From Bacteroidales bacterium (GTDB lineage Bacteria; Bacteroidota; Bacteroidia; Bacteroidales; UBA10428): a stretch of 64,000 nucleotides of DNA. Under the pieces are notes generated by a model. It searched no databases. It was not told where the DNA came from and was given only the letters and a program-made list of their open reading frames with translations. Position numbers and translations under genes: made by a program. Where the stretch lies: NCBI GenBank assembly GCA_016926235.1, contig JAFGOZ010000699.1, forward strand, positions 1 to 64,000, read 5' to 3'. Every line of letters starts with the position of its first letter. The first letter of the stretch is position 1. Below, one piece after another: positions 6,436 to 31,282 of the stretch.

Positions 6436-8733
6436 TTAGTTTATAAAGAGAAGTTTTGTCATATGAGTTTTGGAGGCATCTTCATTTGTACAAAACACAA
6501 GATAAACACCTGTATGCACGCGTTTCCCGCTCAGTGTTCTGCCATCCCATACTGCCTGGCCTCCCAGAGCAGTGGTTTCAAAAACAAGGTTGCCGCTAAT
6601 ATCTGTAATCTTTACATTTGCATTTCTGGCAAGGCCTGTAACGATTATCTCCCCATTATAACCCTCACGCACAGGGTTCGGGAAAACATATACATCTTTA
6701 AAATCATCATCCCCCATGGTTGCATCACTCCGGAAAGACAGCATTCCTTTATCCGTAGCAATAAACACCTCACCGGTTTCCTGGTTAATTTCAATATCAT
6801 TAATCCTGTCAGAAAACATAGGGGAATTAAAAGCAGTAAAATTATGTATTTGCTTCATTCCATCATCTGAGATTAAAAAAATTCCCGAACTTGCTGTTCC
6901 AAACCATTTACGGTTTGCCCCGTCAACATCAATGGCAGTTATTGCAGAAGCGCCCAGTAATGCATCCCCGTATTCCGTGCCATCATTCCTTGGAATGATG
7001 ATTTGATAACCTAAAGGATCATCTTCTGTAAGAATATCGGTAAAATTATAGTATACAATGGGACCTTTGGATGTACCCACCCATACATTCCCATCCAGAT
7101 CTTCCTTTATTGAATACACATTATCCATTACCTCACCCTCCTGATTTTTTACAGTTATAAACCTGCCTTTATTCCCCTGTGATGTAAACTGTCTGTTATT
7201 ATCGAATACATAAAATCCTGTAACGGCAGTCCCGGTTCCTCCTGTGCAAAGAAAACATTTATACCCATCTCTTGTAACGATCAAATCCTCAACTCTCTGG
7301 TTTTTGCCAAAAATGCTGGTCTTCATCTCAAATGTATACCATGAGCCATCAGGTCTTAGAACTGTAAGCGGATCCCTGATAATATTGCTTAGTATCCAAA
7401 GATTATACTCTTCATCAAAGGCCAAACCGTTAAGGTTTATATAATTCTCAGAATATCCGTCCACATTTCTAAGGGGGCTGTTATCCTGGTTATAAATATT
7501 GATTAATTCCTGATTATTGTACTCAATAAGACCATATCCATAGGTAGCAACATAAACTTTACTGCTATTTCCGGGATGAATCGCAACAAACGCTTGGTTG
7601 GGCACATCGATCAACTCCTCATGAGTACTCAAATTATGGTTTGTCCATCCTGATTCCTCACTAAAGGAATAAGCCCCTGCTCCACTCCGATTAGCAGCGG
7701 AACTACTTCCCACCCAGACAATATTATCTGAAATTTCAATATCATTAGCATAACTATACCATGGCCCATCAGGATATATCCCATCATTTACCTGTTCATC
7801 AGCTATTTGCACTAACCCATCATCGAATGAAGCAACCCAAATAGTTCCATCCTGACCAAGCACATCTCTGGCCCTCGATATCGGGTAATACTGAGAACTG
7901 GTGAATTCAGTGTTATAAAGAGATATCCCAATATTGGAACTAATAGCTAATTGGTTGTTAACATTACTCATACTATATAGTACATTAGTAAACTGATGAT
8001 GCAAAATCCATCCTTCTTCTTCTTCTGAAAACAAGGCATAAGTTCCGGAAAGGGTATACATTTTATTATTCCATAGTGTTAAATATAAAAATGCACCATC
8101 ATTCCCCGCAATATTCAGTTCCCTGTTCCAATTTCCAGCATCTAAAAGGTTAGCATTTTTATTGGCTTTGTACAATCCGGCATCACTTGCCGCATAAATA
8201 AAACCATTATGCTCAATAATGGAATTAATCTTAATCTCCTTATTACCCTCACCTATTCTATATGTATCTTTTATTTCTCTTTTAACTACATCCATAACAA
8301 TAATTCCAAAACCACAAGCCATAAAGACCAGGTCGTCAATAACCTTTATCTCATAGATTTTCTTATCACCAGACATTTGTTTTTGTTCCAGATCAGGTAC
8401 ATTATATACTGTATTGTTTGTAATCAGATCAATGTTACCATTGGAATATCCCAGTACCAGTGTATTGTTTAAATCATCCCAACAGGCAGCGCTAACACCA
8501 ATATCGGATAAGCCCTGAATTTTTGATAATTTATTGACGGAATTATCGATTAAATCATAATAGAAAAAACCTCCATTAGTAATACAAAATATTTTGTTAT
8601 TGCCGTATACCAATTTTTGACAATGGGAATAAGGAAGGTGATCACGCCATTCGCCCACCGGAATTTGAGAAAAAACGGAAGTTGAAAAAGAAAGTATTAT
8701 TATAAAAACCCTGACTAAAAATCTAACCCTCAT
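6436..8733 (-). CDS. porZ: T9SS component PorZ (two-propeller protein with sorting domain)
   Basis: This matches PorZ, the part of the T9SS attachment complex that works with the sortase PorU at the cell surface when cargo is cleaved and linked to A-type LPS. After a signal peptide (MRVRFLVRVF... SVFSQ), the mature N-terminus IPVGEWRDHLPYSHC is the typical PorZ start. It is followed by repeated two-component-regulator propeller strands (for example GNVWVGTSKGPIVYY and NRKWFGTASSGIFLI). The end (from about residue 680, VYVFPNPVREGYNGE onward) is a T9SS type A sorting domain, as in known PorZ. The ATG at 8733 is preferred because it begins a clean signal peptide; the upstream TTG at 8751 only adds six residues. 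PorU is not in the window. Length is 765 residues. Confidence 0.88.
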   Translation of the reverse strand: MRVRFLVRVFIIILSFSTSVFSQIPVGEWRDHLPYSHCQKLVYGNNKIFCITNGGFFYYDLIDNSVNKLSKIQGLSDIGVSAACWDDLNNTLVLGYSNGNIDLITNNTVYNVPDLEQKQMSGDKKIYEIKVIDDLVFMACGFGIIVMDVVKREIKDTYRIGEGNKEIKINSIIEHNGFIYAASDAGLYKANKNANLLDAGNWNRELNIAGNDGAFLYLTLWNNKMYTLSGTYALFSEEEEGWILHHQFTNVLYSMSNVNNQLAISSNIGISLYNTEFTSSQYYPISRARDVLGQDGTIWVASFDDGLVQIADEQVNDGIYPDGPWYSYANDIEISDNIVWVGSSSAANRSGAGAYSFSEESGWTNHNLSTHEELIDVPNQAFVAIHPGNSSKVYVATYGYGLIEYNNQELINIYNQDNSPLRNVDGYSENYINLNGLAFDEEYNLWILSNIIRDPLTVLRPDGSWYTFEMKTSIFGKNQRVEDLIVTRDGYKCFLCTGGTGTAVTGFYVFDNNRQFTSQGNKGRFITVKNQEGEVMDNVYSIKEDLDGNVWVGTSKGPIVYYNFTDILTEDDPLGYQIIIPRNDGTEYGDALLGASAITAIDVDGANRKWFGTASSGIFLISDDGMKQIHNFTAFNSPMFSDRINDIEINQETGEVFIATDKGMLSFRSDATMGDDDFKDVYVFPNPVREGYNGEIIVTGLARNANVKITDISGNLVFETTALGGQAVWDGRTLSGKRVHTGVYLVFCTNEDASKTHMTKLLFIN

Positions 8734-8811
8734 ATATTCAAGTTTTGTCAATAATAAACAACGCTTATCTGTTGTCTATATTGTTTAAGGAATTTAAATT
8801 ATTTGTACTTT

Positions 8812-17105: not shown

Positions 17106-20100
17106 TTACGAAAGTTTATCTATTTTCACACCAATTACCAGTTGGTCGTCCACTTGTCCATATTGCCCAATAGTCATCCACTCTTCAATATTATCATTCA
17201 GCATCTTCCTTTGTTCTTCCATCGGGAAATTTTGTATTTTTAAAATGTATTCCTTAAATGCCTTTGACATGAATTTTTTCCCTTTCTCACCGCCAAACTG
17301 ATCCACATAACCATCGGAAAAAATATAGAAAGAATGGCCCACTTCGATATCAATCTCAATACTGCTGAATGATATGTCAATGGACGAAGATATGCCAATA
17401 GGCATCTTATCTGCACTTATCTGCTTTAATTGATGGGTCTCGCTCCAAACAAGCTCGCGCGGTAATTCTTCAGGCCTGTTCATCTTTTCTTCTTCCGTAA
17501 GAGGACGAACCCAATAAAGTGGATTATTCGCTCCGGCATACTCCAATTTTTTATTTGTTTTATCTATAACTATTAAGGCAAGATCCATACCATCCTTTTG
17601 TTCTCCAATTTTACCTTCCTGTTTGAGTGCATCCACAACATGCGCCCTCAGTTGGTTAAGTATCTCAGCAGGTTTTAAGGTCCCCGTTCGTGAAACAATT
17701 TCATTTAAGAAAGATATTCCCAACATACTCATAAATGCACCTGGCACTCCATGACCTGTACAATCAGCAGCAACAATATACAACTTACCATGTTCCTGTG
17801 ATATCCAGTAGAAATCACCACTTACTATATCTCTGGGTCGGAACAGCACAAAATGATCAAAAAAGTCTTCAGTATATACTTTTTCTGAAGGCAACAAGGC
17901 TTGTTGTATACGACTGGCGTAATGAATACTATCTTTAATGTCCTTATTCTGGGCAGCAATTTTATCACGTTGGCATTCAATCTCATCTTTTTGTTTTACC
18001 ACTTCAGCAGTTCGTTCTGCAACAATAGTTTCCAGTCTCTCATTTTCTCTCTTTAACCTTCGGGTATAGTATTTTACTATGACAACTACCAGGAAAATGC
18101 CGATAATAACATATATTATATAAGCCAGTATGGTCCTGTACCATGGGGGTAAAATCGTAAACTCATAAGTACCAATAGTACTCTCAACTTCATACACATT
18201 TTTAGCTTTTACCTGGAAAACATACGTTCCTTCATTCAGGTTTGTATAGGGTGCTTTGGTTTCCCTTGACCATTTAGACCATTCTTTATCGAATCCCTCC
18301 AATTTATGACTGTATTGTGTCTTCTCCTCTTGTGTGAAAAAAGGAGCTGCAAATTCGAAGGTTATCGAATTGTATTTGTAAGGAAGAGTGAATATTAATT
18401 CTTCCGGTTGTGTAAGTGATATTTTACTAATATTGCCATTCTCATCCTTTTTATAATTTGTTCCGTTGAAAAGAACTGAATCTTCGTCAACTATCACTTT
18501 TCTAACCAGACAGTTAAACCTTACAGAGTCGAGTACATTATTTTTGCCTCCTTTACATTGTCTATATGCAGCTTTTATATCAAAACAATATAACTCATCT
18601 GATAATCCAATCCATATAAGGCTATCCTTATCAAAATAGAATGCTTCAGCCTGATTATTTGGAAGTATTTTAAAAAAAATATTTAACCATTCATAATCAA
18701 CACTATCCGAAACATCTTCCAACCTTACATACCATCTGTTATCTTTCTCAAACGAAAATAAATATTTTTCATCATATGAAGTATGCTTATAAATTTTTGT
18801 TAATTCCTTGTTGTAAATGTCTCCAAAGACATCATAATGCAGGAATGAATCAGAAGCTATATCATATTTTAAAAATCCCAGATTTGTCCGGGCAACAATA
18901 TTATTCTTGTAATAAAACAATTTTGGATCTTCTTTTATTGGGACGCCTTTCTCCTGTCCATATCTGCTAATAGTATAATCCTGTTCACTTTTAGAGAGTT
19001 TAAAGATACCATCAACATCTGATGACAACCAGATTTCACCATTTGGATCTTCCAGAATATCTTCAATTGAATAATTAAATGGAGCAACCCATTTTACCTG
19101 CCACATATTATTTTCATAAGTGTAAACCGCTAACCCTTCTGAATGTCCAATAAAAAATGTAGCCGGATTTAACTTTGAATTAAGTATACAACGGGCAAGG
19201 AATAGATATCCTTTCCCGTCAATACGTGTAAAATCTTGTGTATCTCTGATAATATAAACACCTCCCTGTGTTGCAACGATTAAATTTTCTTTCCCGTTAA
19301 AAGATTTAAATTTTTTGAAAGACCAGCTTTGATGGTCAAAATCTTTAATTTGGACAAATTTGGGAAAACCATTTACATAATCTAAATAGAAAACGCCAAT
19401 ATCCGTGGCTATATAAATTCTATCATCAAACCTTATTACATCGTTAATCCCTGCCGTAAGATCAGATTCTTTTGCAAATCCTTTAATTGGATTATTTATG
19501 TCTATTTTACTTATACCCATTGACAATGTGGTCCATAGCAACGGTAATACATTTGCATGGTATTCATCATAAAATGAAGTTATTATCTGATTCTGTATAC
19601 CATTCGCTTCATTGATTATATTTTCAATTTCAAGATCCTGGTTCAAGATTATGCATCCCTTTTGAAAAGATCCTAGTGCATATTGTTCGTCAGATATTTG
19701 AATTCCATCATATAATTGACAATCAACAAAAATATTATTTGTTTGGGTATTTAATTCAGTACATCCTCCGGTTATTGGATCAAATAAAAACAAACCATTT
19801 GAAAATGTACATACCAACATTTTATCTTTGAAGGGGAGCATTGAAAATACCGGCATTTTTGAAAAAAACTCTGATCCTTTAACTAAAACCAAAGAATCCT
19901 CTACTAATTCATACAACCCATCTTTAATATGATTTATATAAAAGTGATCATTCACAATATAACTAAAGAAGAAATTATCCATCTCCTGTCCAAGTTCCTT
20001 AATCCATATAAGTGAATCCTCCTTAAACTTATAAAGCTTTTCAATGGAATTGAAATAAATACATCCTTTAAAGAAATGAGCTTTAAAAACATCCGCATTG

Positions 20101-20480
20101 GTTTTTTGGGCAGAATCCAAATCTAGTGAAAGGGAAACATATTTTAATTCCCCTCCTGCATCCGGTTTTAAATACCCGAATTCTCCCAAACCCCCTACAT
20201 AAACCTTCCCATTATCATCAATTGCAAATGAGCGAACAATTGAATTGAACACAGGTATCTTACGCCAATTCACTCCATCGTATTCCAATACCCCATCATC
20301 TGTATTCCCAAAATACATTACCCCCCTTTTATCCTGAATCACAGACCAGTTTTGCTCTGATGCCCCATATTCTTCCTTTGTGTAATTCCTTATAAATGGA
20401 ATACCATTCTTATTCACCTGGGCAAAGCAAGTATTTGATAAAAGAAAAGATAAGATAATACAAACTACCCTGTAATTCAT
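17106..20480 (-). CDS. Beta-propeller sensor with Y_Y_Y domain and SpoIIE-type PP2C phosphatase
   Basis: A predicted inner-membrane signalling phosphatase. A signal peptide (MNYRVVCIILSFLLS...CFAQ) precedes a large periplasmic two-component-regulator propeller (about 25-690), then a Y_Y_Y domain (about 700-770, ending with TYEFTILPPWYRT). One membrane helix (about 778-800) follows, then a coiled coil rich in Glu/Lys (805-850), and a cytoplasmic SpoIIE/RsbU-like PP2C domain (about 865-1122). PP2C metal motifs are seen in RPRDIVSGDFYW, AADCTGHGVPGAFMSM, DGMDLAL and FSDGYVDQ. Members dephosphorylate phosphoserine proteins such as anti-sigma antagonists; no such partner is nearby. It lies downstream of the adhesin across a terminator and upstream of the C25 peptidase, which suggests control of surface proteins, but that is inference. 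Confidence 0.88.
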   Translation of the reverse strand: MNYRVVCIILSFLLSNTCFAQVNKNGIPFIRNYTKEEYGASEQNWSVIQDKRGVMYFGNTDDGVLEYDGVNWRKIPVFNSIVRSFAIDDNGKVYVGGLGEFGYLKPDAGGELKYVSLSLDLDSAQKTNADVFKAHFFKGCIYFNSIEKLYKFKEDSLIWIKELGQEMDNFFFSYIVNDHFYINHIKDGLYELVEDSLVLVKGSEFFSKMPVFSMLPFKDKMLVCTFSNGLFLFDPITGGCTELNTQTNNIFVDCQLYDGIQISDEQYALGSFQKGCIILNQDLEIENIINEANGIQNQIITSFYDEYHANVLPLLWTTLSMGISKIDINNPIKGFAKESDLTAGINDVIRFDDRIYIATDIGVFYLDYVNGFPKFVQIKDFDHQSWSFKKFKSFNGKENLIVATQGGVYIIRDTQDFTRIDGKGYLFLARCILNSKLNPATFFIGHSEGLAVYTYENNMWQVKWVAPFNYSIEDILEDPNGEIWLSSDVDGIFKLSKSEQDYTISRYGQEKGVPIKEDPKLFYYKNNIVARTNLGFLKYDIASDSFLHYDVFGDIYNKELTKIYKHTSYDEKYLFSFEKDNRWYVRLEDVSDSVDYEWLNIFFKILPNNQAEAFYFDKDSLIWIGLSDELYCFDIKAAYRQCKGGKNNVLDSVRFNCLVRKVIVDEDSVLFNGTNYKKDENGNISKISLTQPEELIFTLPYKYNSITFEFAAPFFTQEEKTQYSHKLEGFDKEWSKWSRETKAPYTNLNEGTYVFQVKAKNVYEVESTIGTYEFTILPPWYRTILAYIIYVIIGIFLVVVIVKYYTRRLKRENERLETIVAERTAEVVKQKDEIECQRDKIAAQNKDIKDSIHYASRIQQALLPSEKVYTEDFFDHFVLFRPRDIVSGDFYWISQEHGKLYIVAADCTGHGVPGAFMSMLGISFLNEIVSRTGTLKPAEILNQLRAHVVDALKQEGKIGEQKDGMDLALIVIDKTNKKLEYAGANNPLYWVRPLTEEEKMNRPEELPRELVWSETHQLKQISADKMPIGISSSIDISFSSIEIDIEVGHSFYIFSDGYVDQFGGEKGKKFMSKAFKEYILKIQNFPMEEQRKMLNDNIEEWMTIGQYGQVDDQLVIGVKIDKLS

Positions 20481-20496
20481 TCCAATTTGAGATCAA

Positions 20497-20527
20497 TAAA
20501 AAAAGGCAAAATAAATTATTTTGCCTT
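20497..20527 (-). terminator. Rho-independent terminator after the 12-repeat adhesin
   Basis: A perfect 11-bp inverted repeat (AAGGCAAAATA 20503-20513, TATTTTGCCTT 20517-20527) with a 3-nt loop is followed on the minus strand by a run of seven T (20498-20504). The hairpin ends only about 17 nt before the ATG of the phosphatase gene at 20480. Confidence 0.8.
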
Positions 20528-20551
20528 CTAAAATACAATTTTTTATTCTTA

Positions 20552-23500
20552 TCATTCTACATTAATGAATACTTTTTGAGAATAAATCTGGTCTCCTACA
20601 TATAATTTAATTATGTATTCATTTGTCAACCATGGAACCTGGATGGTATTTATTGAAACCGGATTAAGTTGAGCCTCAATAACAGCCTGTCCCAATAAAT
20701 TATAAACCACGGCTCTTGCTTCAAATGCAGAAGGCATATTATTCTGGATATATATTATATCCTTATAAGAGTAAATGTATATTTTCAATGATTCCTGCTC
20801 TTCCATCCCAACTCCATCTGCAATAAGTATTACTCCGGAACTTGCTATCAATGGGTCACCTGTATGATCATCTACTTCACTTGCATTAATAGTAAGAGTA
20901 ACATCAGTAATATTTACTGCGTAATCTTCGGTTCGGTTTCCTGAAAGTGCCAGTGTAGCTTCAGTTGAATTAATCCTTGTAACAGTACCTTTTGTAACAC
21001 CAACAGGAAGGTTACTTAGCGTCCAGTTATCCGGATTAAGCGTCCCAATAAAAGTTCCTCCAGCTAAGGTAACTGTTATTATTTCGCCATCTTCAGCCCC
21101 TTCATGTATTTCCCCGTCATCAGCCATAGTTATACTCTCTATATCATCAGTAGCTTCTATTAACAGGGAATTACTTGTAAGCATTACTCCTTTTGACAAC
21201 TCCGAAGCTGCAATGGATAATCCTGTATTAAAGTTGTTATCAAAGTCGGTCCCGTCAAATGAAAGTTCTATTGTTGCATGTGCAGTATCAACATAATTAA
21301 TACCGTTAATGCTCAACCCATTAGGAGCATTTTGAATAGTAATATTCGCAATTTCCAGAGTTGGATCAACAAATGTTTCCTCAACCAGTTGAATATCTAC
21401 TATTGCTCCATCCAGATTTTCCTCAGTAAGTCCGGCATGTGTAATAACAAGTGACTCCGTTTCAATAACCGCTGTTATTGTGAGCGTATTACTCATTATA
21501 CTCTTACCAGATGATAATTCCAATCCGGAAATTAATATTGCAAAATCAGGTATATCTGTATCAAAATCCACCCCCCCAAAAGTGAGAGTAATAGTTGCAC
21601 TTGTACTACTATTGTATTGTACTAAATCTACAAATGTACCGGCAGGAGCATTCACAAGTGAGAAATTTGCAGGCGAAAGGCTTGCATCTGCAAAAATATC
21701 ATTTACTAATTCCAATTCAATCTGGGCTCCATCGAGATTACTCTCAGTTAATCCGCTATGGGAAATAATCGCACTCTGACTTTCCTGCATAGCATAAATT
21801 GTTGTGTCATTTGAAGTTATATCTCCCATACTTACTAACTCTTCACCTTGAATAGTAACACTAAAGTCAGTAATATCAATATCGAAATCGGATCCATCAA
21901 AAGCTAATCCCAATAAGGCATTGGTTGAACTCACCCATGACACATATTCCACACTTGATCCGGCAGGTGCGTTGTTTAAACTAAAGTAAACCGGATTTAG
22001 AGTTCCATCTACAAACTGGTCATTCTCTAAAGTAATTAAAATGGTCGCAGTATCCAGATTATTTTCATTTAAGGAATCTACATTATAAGATTGGATAGAC
22101 GCTGATTCGATAGTAGCAGTAAATTCTATACCTGTTGAAACAGAAAGATCATACCCCGATAAGTCATCTATCTGACTTTCGGCTATGGTTAATGTGGCAT
22201 TACTGATATCCAAATCGTAATCCAGAGTCCTTGTACCTTCCAAAATAATAGTAGCACTTGTCCTGTCATTTAATATCACGGTATCTATTGAAACACCTGC
22301 AGGCATATAGTCCAATGTCCATTCACCCTCATCAGGTATTGAAACAAATGTGCCTCCGGAAAGGAGAACTTCTATCTGCTCTCCATCCTCATATCCTTCC
22401 AAAATGCTTCCATCATCATACATCATCAGACTTTCTCCATCGTCATCGGCGTTGAAAGTAACACCGGTTGATGCGCTTAAAAATCCACTATTGTCATAAA
22501 ACTCAGTTGGTTCAACAGTAAGAACAGGTTGAATATTCTGGTCATAATCTGTTTCCCGGGTCCCTGCTAAAGTAATCATAACCGTTGTATCTGATATCCT
22601 GGTTATATCATCTATTGAAACCCCATCGGGTAATATATCAAAACTCCAGGCGACCGGATTAATTGACAAAGCAAATGTACCCCCATCAATTTCAACAGAG
22701 ATCTGCTCACCATCTTCGTATAATTCCTCTATTGAACCATCATCACTCATAACCAAAGATTCCGGATCATTTAAGGCATGGATTACAACACCTGAACTAT
22801 CCACAAGATCTATACCCGTATATTCATCAATCTGATCATCCTCAACTGCAACGCCTATATTTGATATATCTGAATCATAATCAATCAGTCGATTTCCTGA
22901 TAACAAAATTTGTACATGATTTCCATCCGTTTTAGTCACCGTTTGTTTATATACACCATCCGGTAAGTTTAAAACCGTCCAATTATCAGGATTTATTGAT
23001 GGGACAAGAGTACCTCCAATAACTTCAACATAAATAACACCCTCACTCTCATGACTTTCATTAATCCCATTATCAGAAATGCTTATTGATTCATCATCAA
23101 TCACTGCCGTAATTGTAACTGAATTACCTGAAATAATATTTCCAGAAGTATGGTCATCAACTTCGGAGGCTGTTACTGTTAAAGCAATCCCCGTAATACT
23201 TACATCAAAATCTGTTGTTCGGTTACCTGAAAGTATGATATGTGCAACAGTCGGACTGGATTTTATAACACTTCCAATAGTAACTCCGGCAGGAAGATTT
23301 GATAATGCCCAGTTATTCTTATTTATTGAAGTAGCAAACGTTCCATTTGAAACAGTAGCAATGATAGTGTCCCCGTCTTCAGAACCTTCATAAATACTAT
23401 TTGATGACAAACTTATCGTTTCCGGGTTGTCTGCAATAGCGATAAAAGTAATTCCGGAATTTCCGATCCCATCTGATGAGCTATTGGCAATCTGGCTGGA

Positions 23501-25699
23501 ATCGATCCGGATAGATGTATTTGTAATATTCGCATCATAATCTTTTATCCTGTTCCCGTTTAAAACAATAGTGATCGAATCATCAGCAACCCTGGTTATG
23601 GTACCTTTTGTAACACCTACAGGCAAGTTGCTGAAAACAAAACTATCCGGATTTAATATCGAAATAAACTCTTTTGGGTAGCCTAATGCAACAGATATTA
23701 CCTCCCCGTTTTCAGAACCTTCCTGAATATCTCCGTCATCGTATAAATGAACAATTAACCCTTCATCCACAGCAGTAAAAACAACACCTGTATTTACACT
23801 TAATGCTCCACTTGGAAGATCATCCACCTGATCAGCATTGATTGTTAGCGTTGCATTGGTAATATCTTCATCATAATTCACTGTACGATTCCCTGAAAGC
23901 TCAATAGTTGCAGTAATTGAACTTGTTCGGGTTATTGTTCCTTTTGATACACCAACCGGTAAATTCGCCAGAGTCCAGTTTGCAGGATTGATCGGATCAA
24001 CAAAAGTACCACCAGTAAGTGTCACATCTAATATTGCCCCGTCTTCTGATGCTTCAAGGATAATATCCCTGTTTTCCATTGAAATACTTTCCGGGTCATC
24101 ATAAGCATCAAATAGGACCCCACTGTTTGCAGAAATAGTAGTACCACCATAATCGTCAACATCCGCACCTGGAATTGAAACGGAAACATTTGTTATATCT
24201 GAATCATAATCCACCGACCTGTTTCCAGATAAAACAATAGCAACGGAATCTATTGAAATACGTTGAATAGAACCAACAGAAACACCTTCAGGTAAATTTG
24301 AAATCACCCAGCTACCAGTAGTCAGACTTGTGGTAAAAGTTCCTCCTGTAAGTTTTACCCCAATCACTCTTCCATTTTCATTCCCTTCTGTAATAACATT
24401 ATCCGATAAAGCAATACTTTCAGCATCGTCTGTGGCATCCAACAGCACACCTGTATTTGCCGATACTGAAGAAGATGAATATACAAGTTGGCTACCATCA
24501 ATTTGAACTGTAACATTAGTAATGTCTGTATCATAATCTCTTGTTCTGTTTCCTGTAAGCTGTATGGTTGCTTTTTTTGTACCGGTCCTTACAACAGAAC
24601 CTTTACTAACCCCAACGGGTAATTTAGTAACAGTCCAGGCAGACTGTGTAAAAGTTGATACAAAATCATCGTTTGTTAGTGTCACATAAATTTCTCCTGC
24701 ATCTTCATTCCCTTCTTCAATCATATTATCTGAAAGGGCAATAGAAACACTAAAAGCTGACTGTTCCCCTCCGGTATAACTTGAATAAAAATTACTGACA
24801 GTAGCATTTATTTGATTACTTCCTGAATTTACCTGGTTTAATAAAAACCAGTTAGGACTATACCACCGTGCCCCATATATGCTATCTTCGATACCTGCTA
24901 TATCAGCATCTACATAATTCATGGTAATATCAGCCGAATATGAACTGATATTATATGGTGTAAGTGTCCAGTACCGCGAAAGATAATTCGAAGTGCTTGT
25001 ATTGCTTGCGTGTTTGCTATCAGACAATCTAACCCCTACATATGCTAAAGCTCCATAAGTACCACTGTTGAAATCAACTGTTACCGGGGAGTACTCAGCT
25101 GTGCCCGTATTATCCCCAACCGGATATGTAAAGCTGCTTACCTCTGAAAATCGTTTGATAAACATACCTGTGCTTGTAGCAATGACCATACTTGTAGCAG
25201 ATGGACTCCCATCAAGTTTGGCCGACGACCCAAGGATCAAATGATAGGTTCCCAGCTGAACCAATCCGTTATTTAACACAAGTGAATCGAAAACATTCGT
25301 AGTAACTGCCAGAAGGACCATGTTTGATTTGTCAATAACCAGATCTTCAAAATATGTAGTTCTTGTACCGCCTATTGTTTGTGCCATCGAACCGGTCATC
25401 CATACTTCACCAACATCGTTCATATTTTCGAGAACATATCCTGATGTGGCATTATTATACCAATCCCCTTCCAAAATTATCTTCCCATCCAGGTCTATTC
25501 TACCGTGAGTGGAGTTATACGTCTGATTGGTATAATCAGCCGTTGCGTCTCCATCAATGTATAATATAGCGCCCTCTGTAATTATAATCTTGGCACCATT
25601 ATTTCTGACACCTGTCTGGGCAATAATACTAAAAAAGTAACCCGAATAAAAGATTAAGAGGACTATGGTTAAATATATTTTAATACGAATATGTATCAT
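20552..25699 (-). CDS. Giant T9SS adhesin with twelve ~110-residue repeats
   Basis: A secreted 1715-residue surface protein. The signal peptide (IYLTIVLLIFYSGYFF...IAQT) is followed by a beta-helix-like region (GAILYIDGDATADY..., about 30-320). Twelve tandem repeats (about 320-1640) each begin near ES-L/I-S-x-D, pass an acidic EGxEDGE segment and carry NLPxGV, LSGNRTxDYDxDIT and a closing SGV motif. Repeats 1-8 and 12 follow this pattern. Repeats 9-11 form a divergent subclass with NAPAG and DFDxDI in place of NLPVG and DYDxDI. The last about 75 residues are a T9SS type A sorting domain (AVVYNLLGQAVIEA... SQKVFINVE). It starts 6 bp after the stop of the second S74 gene and so belongs to that operon. 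Acidic loops suggest calcium-stabilised beta-sandwiches; this is inference. Confidence 0.85.
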   Translation of the reverse strand: MIHIRIKIYLTIVLLIFYSGYFFSIIAQTGVRNNGAKIIITEGAILYIDGDATADYTNQTYNSTHGRIDLDGKIILEGDWYNNATSGYVLENMNDVGEVWMTGSMAQTIGGTRTTYFEDLVIDKSNMVLLAVTTNVFDSLVLNNGLVQLGTYHLILGSSAKLDGSPSATSMVIATSTGMFIKRFSEVSSFTYPVGDNTGTAEYSPVTVDFNSGTYGALAYVGVRLSDSKHASNTSTSNYLSRYWTLTPYNISSYSADITMNYVDADIAGIEDSIYGARWYSPNWFLLNQVNSGSNQINATVSNFYSSYTGGEQSAFSVSIALSDNMIEEGNEDAGEIYVTLTNDDFVSTFTQSAWTVTKLPVGVSKGSVVRTGTKKATIQLTGNRTRDYDTDITNVTVQIDGSQLVYSSSSVSANTGVLLDATDDAESIALSDNVITEGNENGRVIGVKLTGGTFTTSLTTGSWVISNLPEGVSVGSIQRISIDSVAIVLSGNRSVDYDSDITNVSVSIPGADVDDYGGTTISANSGVLFDAYDDPESISMENRDIILEASEDGAILDVTLTGGTFVDPINPANWTLANLPVGVSKGTITRTSSITATIELSGNRTVNYDEDITNATLTINADQVDDLPSGALSVNTGVVFTAVDEGLIVHLYDDGDIQEGSENGEVISVALGYPKEFISILNPDSFVFSNLPVGVTKGTITRVADDSITIVLNGNRIKDYDANITNTSIRIDSSQIANSSSDGIGNSGITFIAIADNPETISLSSNSIYEGSEDGDTIIATVSNGTFATSINKNNWALSNLPAGVTIGSVIKSSPTVAHIILSGNRTTDFDVSITGIALTVTASEVDDHTSGNIISGNSVTITAVIDDESISISDNGINESHESEGVIYVEVIGGTLVPSINPDNWTVLNLPDGVYKQTVTKTDGNHVQILLSGNRLIDYDSDISNIGVAVEDDQIDEYTGIDLVDSSGVVIHALNDPESLVMSDDGSIEELYEDGEQISVEIDGGTFALSINPVAWSFDILPDGVSIDDITRISDTTVMITLAGTRETDYDQNIQPVLTVEPTEFYDNSGFLSASTGVTFNADDDGESLMMYDDGSILEGYEDGEQIEVLLSGGTFVSIPDEGEWTLDYMPAGVSIDTVILNDRTSATIILEGTRTLDYDLDISNATLTIAESQIDDLSGYDLSVSTGIEFTATIESASIQSYNVDSLNENNLDTATILITLENDQFVDGTLNPVYFSLNNAPAGSSVEYVSWVSSTNALLGLAFDGSDFDIDITDFSVTIQGEELVSMGDITSNDTTIYAMQESQSAIISHSGLTESNLDGAQIELELVNDIFADASLSPANFSLVNAPAGTFVDLVQYNSSTSATITLTFGGVDFDTDIPDFAILISGLELSSGKSIMSNTLTITAVIETESLVITHAGLTEENLDGAIVDIQLVEETFVDPTLEIANITIQNAPNGLSINGINYVDTAHATIELSFDGTDFDNNFNTGLSIAASELSKGVMLTSNSLLIEATDDIESITMADDGEIHEGAEDGEIITVTLAGGTFIGTLNPDNWTLSNLPVGVTKGTVTRINSTEATLALSGNRTEDYAVNITDVTLTINASEVDDHTGDPLIASSGVILIADGVGMEEQESLKIYIYSYKDIIYIQNNMPSAFEARAVVYNLLGQAVIEAQLNPVSINTIQVPWLTNEYIIKLYVGDQIYSQKVFINVE
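20820..24750 (-). repeat. Twelve tandem coding repeats of about 327-330 bp
   Basis: Twelve units encode about 110 residues each, with the recurring landmark LSGNRxxDYDxxIT. The units are well diverged from one another, so the array is old and probably stable, unlike the near-identical HYR array at the left edge of the window. Confidence 0.85.
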
Positions 25700-25705
25700 A
25701 TTTTT

Positions 25706-28519
25706 TTATTTAATGGTTTTTTTTAGCTCTTCTAATTCCCTTTTCAATTCTTCAATCTCACTTATTTTTTGTTCAAGTTCATCAATCTTTTTCTTTTGTT
25801 CCTGAATTACTTCAATTAAAGGAGTAATCAGTTTACTGTATTGCACTGTCTCAACCAGACCATCTTCTCCATAAAAAACAAAATCCGGATTTATTTTCTC
25901 AACTTCCTCAGCGATCAAACCATAATGAATTTTTGATCCTCCGTCTTTGTAATTAAAAGTAACCGGACGAAGTTGATAAATCCAATCTGCATTATCTATA
26001 TCGTTAATGTTATCTTTATATCGGATTGATGAACTCAAATAACCCAGTTTGCCTGTATTATCAATGTATAAATCAATGTTAGTGCTCCCTACAACATCAT
26101 AATAAACATTTGGCATACGAACCTCACCAATTGTATTTACATACATTCTCACAGTTGAATAGGGAGTACCGTAACTTCCCGTAGTAACAACTAAAGGATA
26201 ATTTGCAGATGTTATAACGGAACCGGGTTCATATTGAGCTGTCCAATCGTAGGCTGAGTTTAATGCAGTATAGTCTCCTACATTTAATCCTGCCAGGCTG
26301 TTTGACCACCAACTGTCTATCATTTTTCGATCATCCCCATTATATATAAATGCTGCACCACCCGAAAATCTTAAAGTATCTCGTACAATAAGGTTTCCAT
26401 TTATTTTAACCAGATCATTATCAAATTCACCATAAATCAGTGGTGAACTCGTATTGGAAGGATCTATATATAAACGATATGAATTGGTCTCATTACCTCC
26501 TGCCATATAACCTAAAAAAATATTAAACGAATTATTTACAAGAGAACCTTGCCGTCCTGCTCCAGTTCCAATTATAGTATTCCCATTACCCCTGTTAGAA
26601 ATTCCCGCATAATAGCCTAGGCATGTATTACTACTCCCAGTATTATTCATATGTCCGGCACTCATTCCAATCATTGTATTATATGAACCTGTATTGGATG
26701 CACCTGCATAAGAACCAAAGAATGAATTAAAATGCCCCCCTGAATTTCCAACTCCGGCTTCTTCTCCTACATATGTATTTTGTATTCCATTCACGTTATT
26801 TAACCCGGCTTCCTGGCCAATAAAAACATTTTTACACCCTAATATGTTATTCTTCCCTGATTTATAACCTATAAAAACATTGTATGTACCTGAGGTATCA
26901 TAAGGATCGGCAACCGGTTCAGGGTTGGGTTGGCCATTTCCGGTATTACTATATCCAGACTGATAACCCATAAAAACATTATATTTCCCAAGGAAATTTT
27001 GAATACCTGACTGGTGTCCAATAAAACTATTTATTGTATTGATCTTGATATATTGCGCCGGCTCTGTGCTTTTGATATCTTTTGCGCCAAAACCGCCATC
27101 TCCGTCAGTGTATACCCGAGTACTGTCTGATCTTACAGATAAATAATCCAAGGCTCCTTTCCCTGTAGACACTTTTGCAACTGCAAATCCGGCTTTCCCC
27201 CCTTTTTTATTGCTCTCATCAATATAAATCCTTACACTGTCAGGAGTTACCCTTAAATATTCCTCTCCTGCTTTCCCGGTAGAAACCTTTGCTACGGCAA
27301 ACCCGGCTTTACCGCCTTTACCCTGCTCATCTACATATACTCTGACTCCTTCATTATATACACCAAACATTACCTGTCCGTATTTATTTTTAACCTCAAA
27401 TATCGGATCTTCATCTCCACCGCTTGCATCTCCTTTAATCTCCAACTTACCTCCGGGATTAATAACCCCAATACCCACATTATCACTTGTATCTGTCAAA
27501 TAGACACTATTGCCATTAATACTCCAGAAACCACTGGCATTGGTTTTATCAGGCACGTCCTCAATATAATCGTAACCTGAAAAACTCTGTGTGCGAGAAA
27601 ATGCCCATCCTTCGGCGTATGATTCAGTCATTCCTGCCTGTGTTTGCATAAATATTGAAACGGTAAGTTTTGGGTAATCAACTGTTTCTGTTGTATCTCC
27701 AATAATCAAAGCCACATTATTAGTAGAAGTATTTCGGGCCAGTCGAACGGGTACCTTTAATGATCCCAGATTGATTAATCCCTGGTTATGAAATCCCGTA
27801 GAGGTACAATACGACCCGACTGTAATATCAAACGGGCCCGTGTTATGATAAAAATACCCTTCGATCCTGATCCTGAACATACAATTGCTGGCCATAGGTT
27901 GGGATGTATTTAATACAAATGCCCCCGTACCAGTATTTGCACTATAACTTGCCAGGTTTCTATATACCTTACATGTGCTACTTCCTTCAATTATAAGGTT
28001 ATCCCCCATCTTTATCTGCCCTTGGTCATTCACAGTAAATACCGCTGTTCCATTATCCTGTATTACAAAATCACCCGTGCCGTTCAAATTAAAATTCATA
28101 TTATAATTGCCCTGGCTTACAGTAGTTGTTTGAGTCAATGTTCCTCCAAAAATTACATTTCCTCCACTCTCCGTAAGGCCATTTCCAAAATCATAGGTTG
28201 AACTACTGCTTATCATCTCCCAGTTTGTTCCATTCCAAAAATAAAAGCCTGGAGTGGAATAGGTTCCACTGGTAGATGTATTCCACACCATTAAACCTAG
28301 AGGTTTAGGATCAGAAATAGGACTGGTGGTATTAACTAAAGCCACCCGTGGAACAAGCAATCCTTTAGTTTCTGACTTTACATCAAGCATTGCTTTATTA
28401 TCTGGAGTATATTTGTCATCATCTGTGATGGTAATATTTTGGGCAAATAAATTTCCTCCAGTATAAAAAATGCTGATTACTACAATGAGTATAACCCTAA
28501 TTTGAATTCTTTTACACAT
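25706..28519 (-). CDS. Phage-fibre-like surface protein with YadA-head-like repeats and C-terminal S74 chaperone domain (copy B)
   Basis: A 937-residue predicted exported fibre. A signal peptide (VILIVVISIFYTGGNLFAQ) precedes ITDDDKYTPDNKAMLDVKS, a start shared with the upstream paralogue. The middle has two 38-residue KGGKAGFAVAKVSTGK repeats and then a series of N-x-F-x-G-x-x-A/S-G units like trimeric adhesin heads (for example NVFIGQEAGLNN). The C-terminus is an S74 intramolecular chaperone (about 825-905: SSIRYKDNI with the Ser/Lys pair, then HYGLIAEEVEKI), which in phage tail fibres trimerises the fibre and is cut off by itself. A 30-residue Glu/Lys coiled coil ends the protein. No T9SS sorting domain is present. 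Its ATG abuts the stop of the upstream gene, so translation is probably coupled. Confidence 0.82.
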   Translation of the reverse strand: MCKRIQIRVILIVVISIFYTGGNLFAQNITITDDDKYTPDNKAMLDVKSETKGLLVPRVALVNTTSPISDPKPLGLMVWNTSTSGTYSTPGFYFWNGTNWEMISSSSTYDFGNGLTESGGNVIFGGTLTQTTTVSQGNYNMNFNLNGTGDFVIQDNGTAVFTVNDQGQIKMGDNLIIEGSSTCKVYRNLASYSANTGTGAFVLNTSQPMASNCMFRIRIEGYFYHNTGPFDITVGSYCTSTGFHNQGLINLGSLKVPVRLARNTSTNNVALIIGDTTETVDYPKLTVSIFMQTQAGMTESYAEGWAFSRTQSFSGYDYIEDVPDKTNASGFWSINGNSVYLTDTSDNVGIGVINPGGKLEIKGDASGGDEDPIFEVKNKYGQVMFGVYNEGVRVYVDEQGKGGKAGFAVAKVSTGKAGEEYLRVTPDSVRIYIDESNKKGGKAGFAVAKVSTGKGALDYLSVRSDSTRVYTDGDGGFGAKDIKSTEPAQYIKINTINSFIGHQSGIQNFLGKYNVFMGYQSGYSNTGNGQPNPEPVADPYDTSGTYNVFIGYKSGKNNILGCKNVFIGQEAGLNNVNGIQNTYVGEEAGVGNSGGHFNSFFGSYAGASNTGSYNTMIGMSAGHMNNTGSSNTCLGYYAGISNRGNGNTIIGTGAGRQGSLVNNSFNIFLGYMAGGNETNSYRLYIDPSNTSSPLIYGEFDNDLVKINGNLIVRDTLRFSGGAAFIYNGDDRKMIDSWWSNSLAGLNVGDYTALNSAYDWTAQYEPGSVITSANYPLVVTTGSYGTPYSTVRMYVNTIGEVRMPNVYYDVVGSTNIDLYIDNTGKLGYLSSSIRYKDNINDIDNADWIYQLRPVTFNYKDGGSKIHYGLIAEEVEKINPDFVFYGEDGLVETVQYSKLITPLIEVIQEQKKKIDELEQKISEIEELKRELEELKKTIK
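27170..27400 (-). repeat. Two 114-bp coding repeats (copy B)
   Basis: The unit encoding GKGGKAGFAVAKVSTGK and RVTPDSVRIYIDE occurs twice, with landmarks at 27174 and 27288 exactly 114 bp apart. The same unit occurs three times in the paralogue at 30460-30780. Confidence 0.8.
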
Positions 28520-31282
28520 TTATTGTTTATTTATTAATTTATAAAGTTCTTCTACTTTTTGATTTAAATCCTGAATAGATTGTTTAAGTTCTTCATTCTC
28601 TTCAGAGATGTTCTTATTTTGTTCTTCCAGTTTATTTATTCTATTATTCTGATCTTGTAGTGCTTTTAGCATGGGAGAAATAAGTTTGGGATATGCAACT
28701 GTTTCAATTTCTCCATCTTTATTCAATAATACTAAATTCTTATTAATTTCATTTACTTCTTCCGCAATAAGCCCATATTGTAATTCATTTGTTTCGTCAG
28801 CTTTATAGTTAAATGATACAGGATTTAGGTCATATAACCAATCAATATCCTTGATTGAATCAATATTTTTCTTATATCTGACAGAAGATGAGCTATACCC
28901 TATTAAACCATTTGTTGTATTTATAGTTAACCATGTTGAACTTGTCAGATTTGCTATATTTGGCATATATATAGAACCTGTGGATTTGTCAATTCTTAAA
29001 TGGGGACCATAAATTAATGCTCCGCTTTTGCCATAGATTTCCATGAAATCTGTGCTTCCGTCATAATGAATCGACATTCCATCATTATATATACTATCCT
29101 CTGCAAAACATAATTGACTACTACCATTTGGATCAAGAGGTAGAATTTCAACTGTTCCTGTTGCCTTGTTAGATTTAATATTAACAGTAGCATAACCATT
29201 AGTACCCAACTGTAAAGGTGAGGTATACTCATTAATTAAGTACATACCATTCCATCTGGAATTGGGGTATAAGACATAATTATCTCCTTCCAGTCCTAGA
29301 GCACCCACCACTCCGCCTCCATCCTGGCGGATTTCCAGCCTGGGATTATCTCCTTCACCGTTATTATTATTATCGGCATCTAATAATAGTGTTACATCAC
29401 CTACATGTGTGATTTCAAGATTACATTCTGGTAAAGTAGCTCCAGTACCGATACCCACCAGCCCGGTACCTGTTACAATAAATTTTGTATTTGCATCGGT
29501 CAATCCTGTAGTTGGATCTGTTTTTGTTCTTATTCTAAAAGGAATATCATCAGCTTCCCCGTCTCCATCAACTAATAGTACTCTAGATCCTCCTTCATTT
29601 ATCCTGTTGTCTATATATACATCTCCATTAAATACCAGCGAATCAGTACTGAAATCTCCATAAATTAATGGAGTTACATCATCTGAATTTTCAATATACA
29701 ACTTATTAGATTCTGCTTCCCAATAACCCGCTTTGTAACCAAGAAAAACACTTCCATTTCTGGCATCTGTTATTGAATTACCTCCTGCTTTCCTGCCTAT
29801 AATAACATTTTGAGAAGCATGCCAACTTCTGCTAGCTGTGGAATCACCAATAATAACATTTTCAGATCCATCGATTCCCCATACCAATGCATATGCTCCC
29901 AAAATGGTATTATTACCTCCATTAGTATATGTACCTGACATTTGACCAATATACGTATTTTGAACAGCACCACCGGTATTTGAACCTGTTTGTGTTCCAA
30001 TATAAATATTTCCTGTTCCTGTTGTAAGATCACCTGCCATTGCTCCAATGCATATATTGTTACCGCCAGTTACTATGCCTTTTCCAGCACCATCACCTAT
30101 ACAAATATTGTTACCTCCATTACCCAGATTATAACCTGCATTATTACCTATACAAATATTATTAAATCCATAACTATTTGAATAACCTGATTGGTATCCC
30201 AAAAAAATATTATTGCTTCCCTCAAATGAAAGGCCATGAGTACCTATTGTATTTAAACCTGCTTCATAACCTATAAAAGTATTATACTTTCCGTCAATAA
30301 GATTAGCTCCTGTATAATGTCCTATTAAATAGTTCTCAGGTGTAAGGTCCACAAACCTTCCTTCCGAGCCAGCAGCAATATTATCTACTGCAAATCCTCC
30401 GTCTCCATTAACATATACGCGGGTACTATCGGATGTTACAGATAAAAAGTCTTCATAACTTTTGCCTGTCGAAACTTTTGCAACAGCAAATCCAGCTTTA
30501 CCTCCTTTTCCTGTATTTTCATCTATGTATATCCTTACGCTATCCGGTGTAACACGCATATATTCTTCACCCGCTTTTCCAGTAGAAACTTTTGCAACTG
30601 CAAATCCGGCTTTCCCTCCTTTTCCTATGTCCTCATTGATGTATATCCTGACACTATCGGGTGTCACCCTCAGATATTCTTCAATAGCTTTACCTGTTGA
30701 GACCTTAGCAACTGCAAATCCCGCCTTTCCTCCTTTACTTTCTTCATTTACAAAAACTCTAACCCCTTCATTATATACACCAAACATTACCTGTCCGTAT
30801 TTATTCTTAACCTCAAATATCGGATCTTCATCTCCACCACTTACATCCCCTTTAATCTCGAGTTTACTACCGGGATTTATTACTCCAATTCCCAGATTTT
30901 CAGTGGTATCAGTAAGATAAACACTATTCCCATTATGGGTCCAGAAATCATAGGATGTACTACCTCCGATCATCTCCCAGTTTGAACCATTCCAAAAATA
31001 AAAACCCGGAATGGGATATAACCCACTGGTTGAAGTATTCCAGACCAGCAAGCCTACAGGTATTGTGCCTGAAATTGGGCTTGTAGTGCTAATTAAAGCA
31101 ACACGGGGAACCAGCATACCTTTGTCTACTGATTTTACATCCAGCATTGCATTCTCATCGGGACTGTAACCATCATCATCAGTAATTGTTACATTTTGAG
31201 CATTTGCAGGCATTTCTGATAAAAATACAATAATACCCAATATCATAATACTTACAAAACGAATAAAAAATAGCCTTTTCAT
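28520..31282 (-). CDS. Phage-fibre-like surface protein with YadA-head-like repeats and C-terminal S74 chaperone domain (copy A)
   Basis: The first gene of the surface operon, 920 residues and paralogous to the next gene. A signal peptide (FVSIMILGIIVFLSEMPANAQ) precedes VTITDDDGYSPDENAMLDVKS. Three 38-residue KGGKAGFAVAKVSTGK repeats (about 170-290) are followed by about eleven glycine-rich head-like units (NICIGNNAGYN, NTYIGQMSGTY, NVIIGDSTA). The S74 domain lies near 797-875 (SSVRYKKNI, then QYGLIAEEVNEI), and a long coiled coil closes the protein (NRINKLEEQNKNISEEN). The Ser and Lys of the S74 self-cleavage dyad are both kept. The stop TAA lies directly against the ATG of the next gene. 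Trimeric fibre assembly is inferred from the family; how it leaves the periplasm is not evident. Confidence 0.82.
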   Translation of the reverse strand: MKRLFFIRFVSIMILGIIVFLSEMPANAQNVTITDDDGYSPDENAMLDVKSVDKGMLVPRVALISTTSPISGTIPVGLLVWNTSTSGLYPIPGFYFWNGSNWEMIGGSTSYDFWTHNGNSVYLTDTTENLGIGVINPGSKLEIKGDVSGGDEDPIFEVKNKYGQVMFGVYNEGVRVFVNEESKGGKAGFAVAKVSTGKAIEEYLRVTPDSVRIYINEDIGKGGKAGFAVAKVSTGKAGEEYMRVTPDSVRIYIDENTGKGGKAGFAVAKVSTGKSYEDFLSVTSDSTRVYVNGDGGFAVDNIAAGSEGRFVDLTPENYLIGHYTGANLIDGKYNTFIGYEAGLNTIGTHGLSFEGSNNIFLGYQSGYSNSYGFNNICIGNNAGYNLGNGGNNICIGDGAGKGIVTGGNNICIGAMAGDLTTGTGNIYIGTQTGSNTGGAVQNTYIGQMSGTYTNGGNNTILGAYALVWGIDGSENVIIGDSTASRSWHASQNVIIGRKAGGNSITDARNGSVFLGYKAGYWEAESNKLYIENSDDVTPLIYGDFSTDSLVFNGDVYIDNRINEGGSRVLLVDGDGEADDIPFRIRTKTDPTTGLTDANTKFIVTGTGLVGIGTGATLPECNLEITHVGDVTLLLDADNNNNGEGDNPRLEIRQDGGGVVGALGLEGDNYVLYPNSRWNGMYLINEYTSPLQLGTNGYATVNIKSNKATGTVEILPLDPNGSSQLCFAEDSIYNDGMSIHYDGSTDFMEIYGKSGALIYGPHLRIDKSTGSIYMPNIANLTSSTWLTINTTNGLIGYSSSSVRYKKNIDSIKDIDWLYDLNPVSFNYKADETNELQYGLIAEEVNEINKNLVLLNKDGEIETVAYPKLISPMLKALQDQNNRINKLEEQNKNISEENEELKQSIQDLNQKVEELYKLINKQ
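30460..30780 (-). repeat. Three 114-bp coding repeats (copy A)
   Basis: Landmarks (tttgcaac/ttagcaac on the plus strand) at 30477, 30591 and 30705 are exactly 114 bp apart. Each unit encodes KGGKAGFAVAKVSTGK and a VRIYI segment. DNA next to the array (30781-30840) is almost identical to 27363-27420 in the paralogue. Confidence 0.82.

Follow-up and report, generated by a model that had tools for sequence, protein, structure and literature searches.

A conserved neighbourhood of S74 fibre-like genes, an adhesin and a propeller sensor phosphatase in Bacteroidota

SprB and RemA are adhesins of gliding and attached Bacteroidota that depend on the type IX secretion system (T9SS). In other settings, a Ser/Lys pair is described for MYRF and phage endosialidases (PMC3742443). 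The SiaA/SiaC partner switch controls aggregation (PMC7647112), and the sensor BT4663, built of two propellers and a Y_Y_Y domain, binds disaccharides (PMC5121618). Here, we analysed a chromosomal locus in which S74-domain fibre proteins, an adhesin-like protein and a sensor phosphatase lie side by side.

The window is the whole stretch of DNA that was analysed, 64,000 nucleotides of contig JAFGOZ010000699.1 from a Bacteroidales bacterium (assembly GCA_016926235.1). On its minus strand, ORF calls and Pfam searches identified, from 5′ to 3′, two S74 proteins (S74-A and S74-B), an adhesin, a propeller/Y_Y_Y/SpoIIE phosphatase and a C25 peptidase, with successive spacings of 0, 6, 71 and 78 bases. 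The earlier note had claimed a four-gene cluster on one strand at 17106..31282 with spacings of 0, 6 and 71 bases, and the ORFs bear this out. Its reading of the products as two S74 proteins, a 12-repeat adhesin and a membrane phosphatase also held when examined by Pfam, a motif count and a hydrophobicity scan. The 71-base gap between adhesin and phosphatase further contains a hairpin terminator, which was absent from that description. The features, all on the minus strand, are as follows.

31282-28520, minus strand: S74-A, 920 aa, with a signal peptide, a common N-terminal domain, three 38-aa stalk repeats, NxxIG head-type repeats, an S74/ICA chaperone with Ser799/Lys804 and then a coiled coil
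28727..28888, minus strand: Peptidase_S74 (ICA) domain of S74-A, residues 799-852 (Pfam)
28519-25706, minus strand: S74-B, 937 aa, the second fibre protein and a mosaic paralogue of S74-A, with Ser830/Lys835
25877..26032, minus strand: Peptidase_S74 (ICA) domain of S74-B, residues 830-881 (Pfam)
25699-20552, minus strand: adhesin-like protein, 1715 aa
24755..25618, minus strand: adhesin N-terminal domain, residues 28-315, the conserved and usually single-copy marker of the unit
20810..24742, minus strand: 12 Ig-like repeats of about 110 aa each (repeat-motif count)
20564..20746, minus strand: T9SS type A-like sorting tail, adhesin residues 1652-1712 (22.0 bits, cut-off 23)
20501..20529, minus strand: intrinsic terminator, a 13-bp stem and T-run that closes the S74-adhesin unit
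20480-17106, minus strand: sensor phosphatase, 1124 aa, with periplasmic propellers and Y_Y_Y (to residue 776), a membrane span at about 784, a coiled coil and SpoIIE/PP2C at 897-1120
17027-12000, minus strand: C25 peptidase with a T9SS tail, 78 bases past the phosphatase and outside the conserved unit

The cluster is flanked upstream by MeaB and DUF1573 genes and downstream by genes for an FAD/NAD oxidoreductase, phosphofructokinase, Ham1, PorZ and RecO (Pfam). PorZ, encoded at 6436-8751, has a two-propeller build that resembles the sensor part of the nearby phosphatase (PMC5121618); together with a more distant GldB gene, it indicates that type IX secretion and gliding genes are present in the window. 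A Mur ligase fused with an alanine racemase is encoded at 45523-47982. Our best explanation of the cluster, which we hold to be about evenly poised between right and wrong, is a conserved Bacteroidota surface-fibre unit in which self-maturing S74 fibres and a T9SS adhesin stand under a sensor phosphatase.

Both fibre proteins showed a hydrophobic peak at the N-terminus and a Peptidase_S74 domain (E 3.7e-10 and 2.6e-12), and PF13884 scored 47.3 and 40.4 bits against a cut-off of 22. Between the two, identity was 64% over the 107 N-terminal residues, 45% in stalk and head and 46% in the chaperone; parts of the distal region found no match, and S74-B has an additional segment of about 220 residues. 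The DNA identity of the two genes peaks in the stalk, at 80% over 377 bases, which suggests exchange between them. The stalk repeats of S74-A are encoded by a tandem 114-base repeat (2.4 copies, 30459-30736). A Ser/Lys self-cleavage pair, five residues apart, is kept in both proteins and, as shown by alignment, is present in 25 of 28 S74 domains chosen from the loci described below, both window copies included. A profile of the chosen domains matched solved phage fibres and MyRF (6f45, E 1.1e-16; 7dc3, E 1.9e-14). Judged by these residues and matches, the S74 proteins would form trimers and cleave themselves. The three domains lacking the pair belong to the copies directly before the adhesin in L064 (7170-9857) and L016 (8136-9962) and to one protein in L018 (1-2325); the copies preceding the adhesin might be specialised, non-cutting partners. 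No T9SS tail was found in the S74 proteins by Pfam and family-model searches, and we count the crossing of the outer membrane against the best explanation.

The NxxIG head repeats presumably resemble YadA-like heads, and a few S74 homologues were named 'trimeric autotransporter adhesin' in a source. A YadA-type trimeric autotransporter was rejected as an identification: Pfam showed no YadA anchor, PF13884 was its only match in both proteins at E<=0.001, and the S74 domain is C-terminal.

The window adhesin carries no Pfam domain. It has a hydrophobic peak at the N-terminus, and residues 1-417 were modelled by AlphaFold2 with a mean pLDDT of 89.9; the N-terminal domain is predicted to be a short beta-helix followed by a beta-sandwich. 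The N-terminal part resembles tailspike-type beta-helices, and the repeat is similar to the Ig-like region of ChiW. The adhesin had been called a T9SS substrate, which is likely, with the reservation that its tail scores slightly below the curated cut-off; among its relatives, 9 of 16 matched the T9SS model TIGR04183 at E<=0.01. The 12-repeat form is no rule: other loci have repeats of the window type, of another type, or none (L017, L067 and L071), and the repeats of some relatives look SprB-like. The constant part of the adhesin across loci is its N-terminal domain.

In the phosphatase, Pfam identified Reg_prop, Y_Y_Y and SpoIIE domains, with PF07228 at 58.9 bits against a cut-off of 25, which places the protein in the SpoIIE/PP2C family. 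A hydrophobic peak at residue 784 fits a single membrane span; the N-terminus fell below the threshold of the scan and looks signal-peptide-like by eye. The phosphatase domain matched 6k4e (E 1.3e-34), an entry titled 'Putative serine phosphatase' that we take to be SiaA, and the motifs SGDF (887), DCTGHG (906), SDGY (1055) and DDQ (1111), presumably the metal-site motifs of PP2C, aligned to it. The Y_Y_Y region matched 4a2l (E 2.6e-11). An assignment as SiaA itself was rejected, as NF038263 gave 188.8 bits, far under its cut-off of 700. Pfam scans of 25 window proteins revealed no SiaB-, SiaC- or SiaD-like gene and no partner-switch gene of any kind, and the lack of the latter counts against the best explanation. 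Elsewhere, a second, short phosphatase-like ORF directly follows the large phosphatase in L093 (540-1343, 267 aa) and L099 (17374-18195, 273 aa). In L071 (4793-14869), a GAF domain is inserted in the phosphatase past the adhesin, and the S74 gene is preceded by a TPR-SpoIIE phosphatase.

To follow the neighbourhood beyond the window, we scanned one genome per species with the aligned adhesin N-terminal domain of 12 proteins; gene context played no part in the selection of loci. The pattern was matched by 158 stretches, of which 19 encode a relative (L001-L019), from metagenome-assembled genomes labelled Marinilabiliales, Salinivirgaceae, other Bacteroidota and one Chlorobiota. Genome searches gave 12 strong matches, six of them in genomes already seen, three repeating L005, L007 and L008, and three new (L063, L064 and L067); with the weaker L071, the related loci came to 23. 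In all 21 loci that show the upstream side, the first gene there is of S74 type and has the same orientation, at a distance of about 1 kb in L007 and L008; L019 and L063 were not counted, since their contigs end 555 and 243 bases upstream. The 'pair' of S74 genes claimed for the window did not prove general, as the runs are one to five genes long and often cut by a contig end. On the other side, five loci break off within the adhesin or, for L001, in a subsequent ORF made of those repeats, and the phosphatase lies downstream in 17 of the 18 loci that reach past the adhesin, in L004 with one 359-aa ORF between. The sole exception, L007, counts against the best explanation: a different, secreted-looking ORF follows the adhesin, and close phosphatases are on other contigs of that genome. 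In this relative (L007 and L102, the contig end past the adhesin), the ORF is unrelated to the phosphatase whose place it takes.

The genes beyond the phosphatase vary. They are DnaK in L015 and L064 (judged by the start of the sequence), other genes in L011, L017 and L071, genes on the minus strand in L009, L013 and L016, and the C25 peptidase in the window, indicating that the unit is conserved over and above general gene order. The order could still be that of ordinary surface proteins, kept by chance or shared descent without joint function, and Bacteroidota indeed have many S74 'tail fiber domain' proteins, with S74-A matched by 1164 of the 7995 candidates that were scored. However, there are merely 5 to 7 S74 domains per genome in the three genomes counted, so that the near-constant adjacency is far beyond chance, and from locus to locus the N-terminal parts of the adhesins share no more than 25-47% identity with that of the window; we consider this explanation very improbable. 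Although the S74 genes have PHROGs tail-fibre matches, it is scarcely credible that they are tail-fibre genes captured from a phage, or what is left of a prophage or contractile injection system, given the signal-peptide-like N-termini, the recurrence of S74 in other genomes together with the adhesin and the phosphatase, and a Pfam scan of 20 flanking window proteins that showed no phage gene.

In all 12 host genomes tested, the adhesin N-terminal domain was strongly matched (E 2e-60 to 1e-29), and one of them has a second copy at 1e-24. To see how widely the domain occurs, we scored only 9 to 12 candidates per genome in each of two sets of genomes. Among 295 genomes of one order, the domain was present at E<=1e-20 in 43, with 12 genomes at 160 bits or more and the next at 136. 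Among 395 genomes of the class, it was present at this threshold in 20, with one at 162 bits, one at 145 and the rest lower; in the family of G002, it occurred in G002 alone (1 of 20). The 145-bit relative (G019, L042) has neither S74 nor phosphatase adjoining, by the profiles used, which counts against the best explanation. The class search gave 22 places, or 20 regions after G010 (already seen) and G395 (not fetched) were set aside. An S74-type gene adjoins the domain on the same strand in 12 of these 20, sometimes downstream, and the phosphatase in none; three of the regions (L043, L049 and L056) are truncated downstream. Similarly, in 14 weaker regions of the order, S74 adjoins in six and the phosphatase in one (L071). 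As weaker relatives often have S74 beside them but almost never the phosphatase, it is S74 with the adhesin domain that is widely associated, and the phosphatase goes with the closer subfamily.

Next, the gaps between genes were compared. A hairpin of 12 to 16 bp with T after it was found in 14 of 17 adhesin-phosphatase gaps (the window, 15 related loci and L098), by criteria fixed after a first look at the gaps, and in none of the 15 gaps that separate S74 genes from one another or from the adhesin. For the adhesin-phosphatase gaps, dinucleotide shuffles (100 sets) gave a mean of 0.01 and a maximum of 1. L003, L017 and L067 lack such a hairpin; the L012 gap was set at 106 bases because the called ORF begins within the hairpin, and L004 and L006 were excluded because their ORF borders are unclear. 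These results indicate that the S74 genes and the adhesin are probably one transcript and the phosphatase another. The earlier note had proposed a dedicated machine of S74 proteins, adhesin and phosphatase packed together, to be refuted by neighbours that are not conserved together or are transcribed separately. Its co-occurrence has largely stood (21 of 21 and 17 of 18); the single packed transcript has not, as the phosphatase is probably set apart by the terminator and the S74 genes and adhesin are not.

The terminator also favours the strongest alternative, in which S74 and adhesin do form a surface unit that is produced together, but the phosphatase beside them is an independent regulator of another pathway. 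We searched the phosphatase in the same 295 genomes, scoring two candidates per genome, and obtained 88 matches at E<=1e-100. The best 28 places (at least 645 bits) were examined; L082, L093 and L094 are cut just upstream, leaving 25 with a visible upstream side. Upstream S74 and/or the adhesin domain was found in 14, eight with the adhesin domain (weak in L098) and six with S74-type genes alone, C25 in five, and neither in six. The phosphatase thus stands without S74 or adhesin in 11 of the 25 best places, which counts against the best explanation and favours an independent regulator, as do L007 and nearly all weaker relatives, in which the adhesin lacks the phosphatase. However, the adjacency in 17 of 18 loci persists despite different outer genes, those of L009 among them, and S74-type genes lie upstream of the phosphatase family in six more places without the adhesin. 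On a quickly built tree of 35 phosphatases, 5 changes suffice for the S74+adhesin label, where shuffles took 11.6 and none of 500 came as low; the sample favours this label because its rows were picked for their similarity to the window or came from the adhesin search. The labelled phosphatases are not one clade, which again counts against the best explanation. On balance, we regard an independent phosphatase as unlikely, though it deserves serious attention. Two further arrangements were seen, S74 x3, phosphatase, S74-type gene and phosphatase in L090 (174-18718), and S74 x3 and phosphatase without adhesin in L091 (1274-13440), whose genome also holds L015.

Less probable, in our view quite doubtful, is that the phosphatase governs T9SS-exported proteins generally, with the window C25 in its regulon, where it may process exported partners. 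The window C25 follows the phosphatase in tandem with no convincing terminator between them. In five of the 25 places (L083, L084, L086, L099 and L100), a divergent C25 adjoins the phosphatase, a single small ORF intervening in L083 and L086; these C25 neighbours carry T9SS tails, and each of the five is the best match to the window C25 within its own genome. A C25-phosphatase link may therefore exist. Against a shared regulon, the C25 relatives of G010, G008, G625, G009 and G446 lie on other contigs or at more than 1 Mb distance from the unit, and no relative was found in G011. That the C25 peptidase, which the earlier note suggested could mature the machine, is part of the unit found no support: the only other C25 near the related units seen is in L017, upstream on the opposite strand. 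Identification of the window C25 as the PorU sortase was likewise rejected: NF052324 gave 43.9 bits against 450, and NF033707 (cut-off 420) was not among the matches listed.

Returning to the surface-fibre unit under a sensor phosphatase, we propose the following course, read from domain content and gene order. Signal peptides would carry the S74 proteins across the inner membrane. The proteins would trimerise by means of their S74 chaperone domain and release it by a cut at the Ser of the Ser/Lys pair, so that the mature fibres bear a beta-roll-like head. The adhesin, co-produced with the fibres from one transcript stopping at the conserved terminator, would be exported by the type IX system, extended by its repeats and anchored or released at the surface. 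The separately transcribed phosphatase would sit in the inner membrane with its propeller/Y_Y_Y domains facing the periplasm. A ligand, either a target glycan or fibre or adhesin parts in transit, may switch the cytoplasmic PP2C domain, which by analogy with SiaA acting on SiaC could dephosphorylate a partner-switch protein encoded elsewhere and thereby set fibre production or attached life. A bolder version holds that the system reports on itself: the cut-off S74 chaperones, or fibre and adhesin stalled in the periplasm, would be the propeller ligand, and the phosphatase would gauge assembly or contact and tune its neighbours via partner switching. We think this improbable; if true, it would be a new surface-organelle checkpoint made from a phage chaperone and a glycan-type sensor.

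The recurrent three-part neighbourhood gives the S74 'tail fiber' proteins, which are frequent surface-type proteins of Bacteroidota, a partner adhesin and a candidate signal pathway, and gives the propeller-PP2C sensors of Bacteroidota a candidate physiological role. It also raises the question of how S74-domain proteins without a T9SS tail cross the outer membrane. The unit appears to be present, as three S74 genes, adhesin and phosphatase in L064, in a cultured species with a complete genome, which makes it directly testable. Targeted searches of the open literature, where most subscription papers are missing, found no description of an S74-adhesin-phosphatase unit.

Every part of the unit belongs to a known family, and what appears to be new is a putative adhesion system with a PP2C-type sensor and putatively self-trimming fibres of phage type. 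With phage S74 tail fibres and tailspikes and with MyRF, the window proteins share the C-terminal chaperone domain, the Ser/Lys pair and the coiled coil; they differ in being bacterial and chromosomal, with signal peptides, often in tandem, and beside an adhesin and a sensor phosphatase. The SiaABCD system of Pseudomonas aeruginosa biofilms has the same type of membrane PP2C phosphatase, tied to attached life, whereas the window phosphatase has a propeller/Y_Y_Y sensor and fibre and adhesin genes beside it. The Bacteroides hybrid sensors BT4663 and BT4673 have the same two-propeller/Y_Y_Y sensor part, but the output of the window phosphatase is PP2C rather than a histidine kinase. Like SprB and RemA, the window adhesin is a large repeat protein with a probable T9SS-type tail, and it is set apart by its own N-terminal domain and its regular S74 and phosphatase neighbours.
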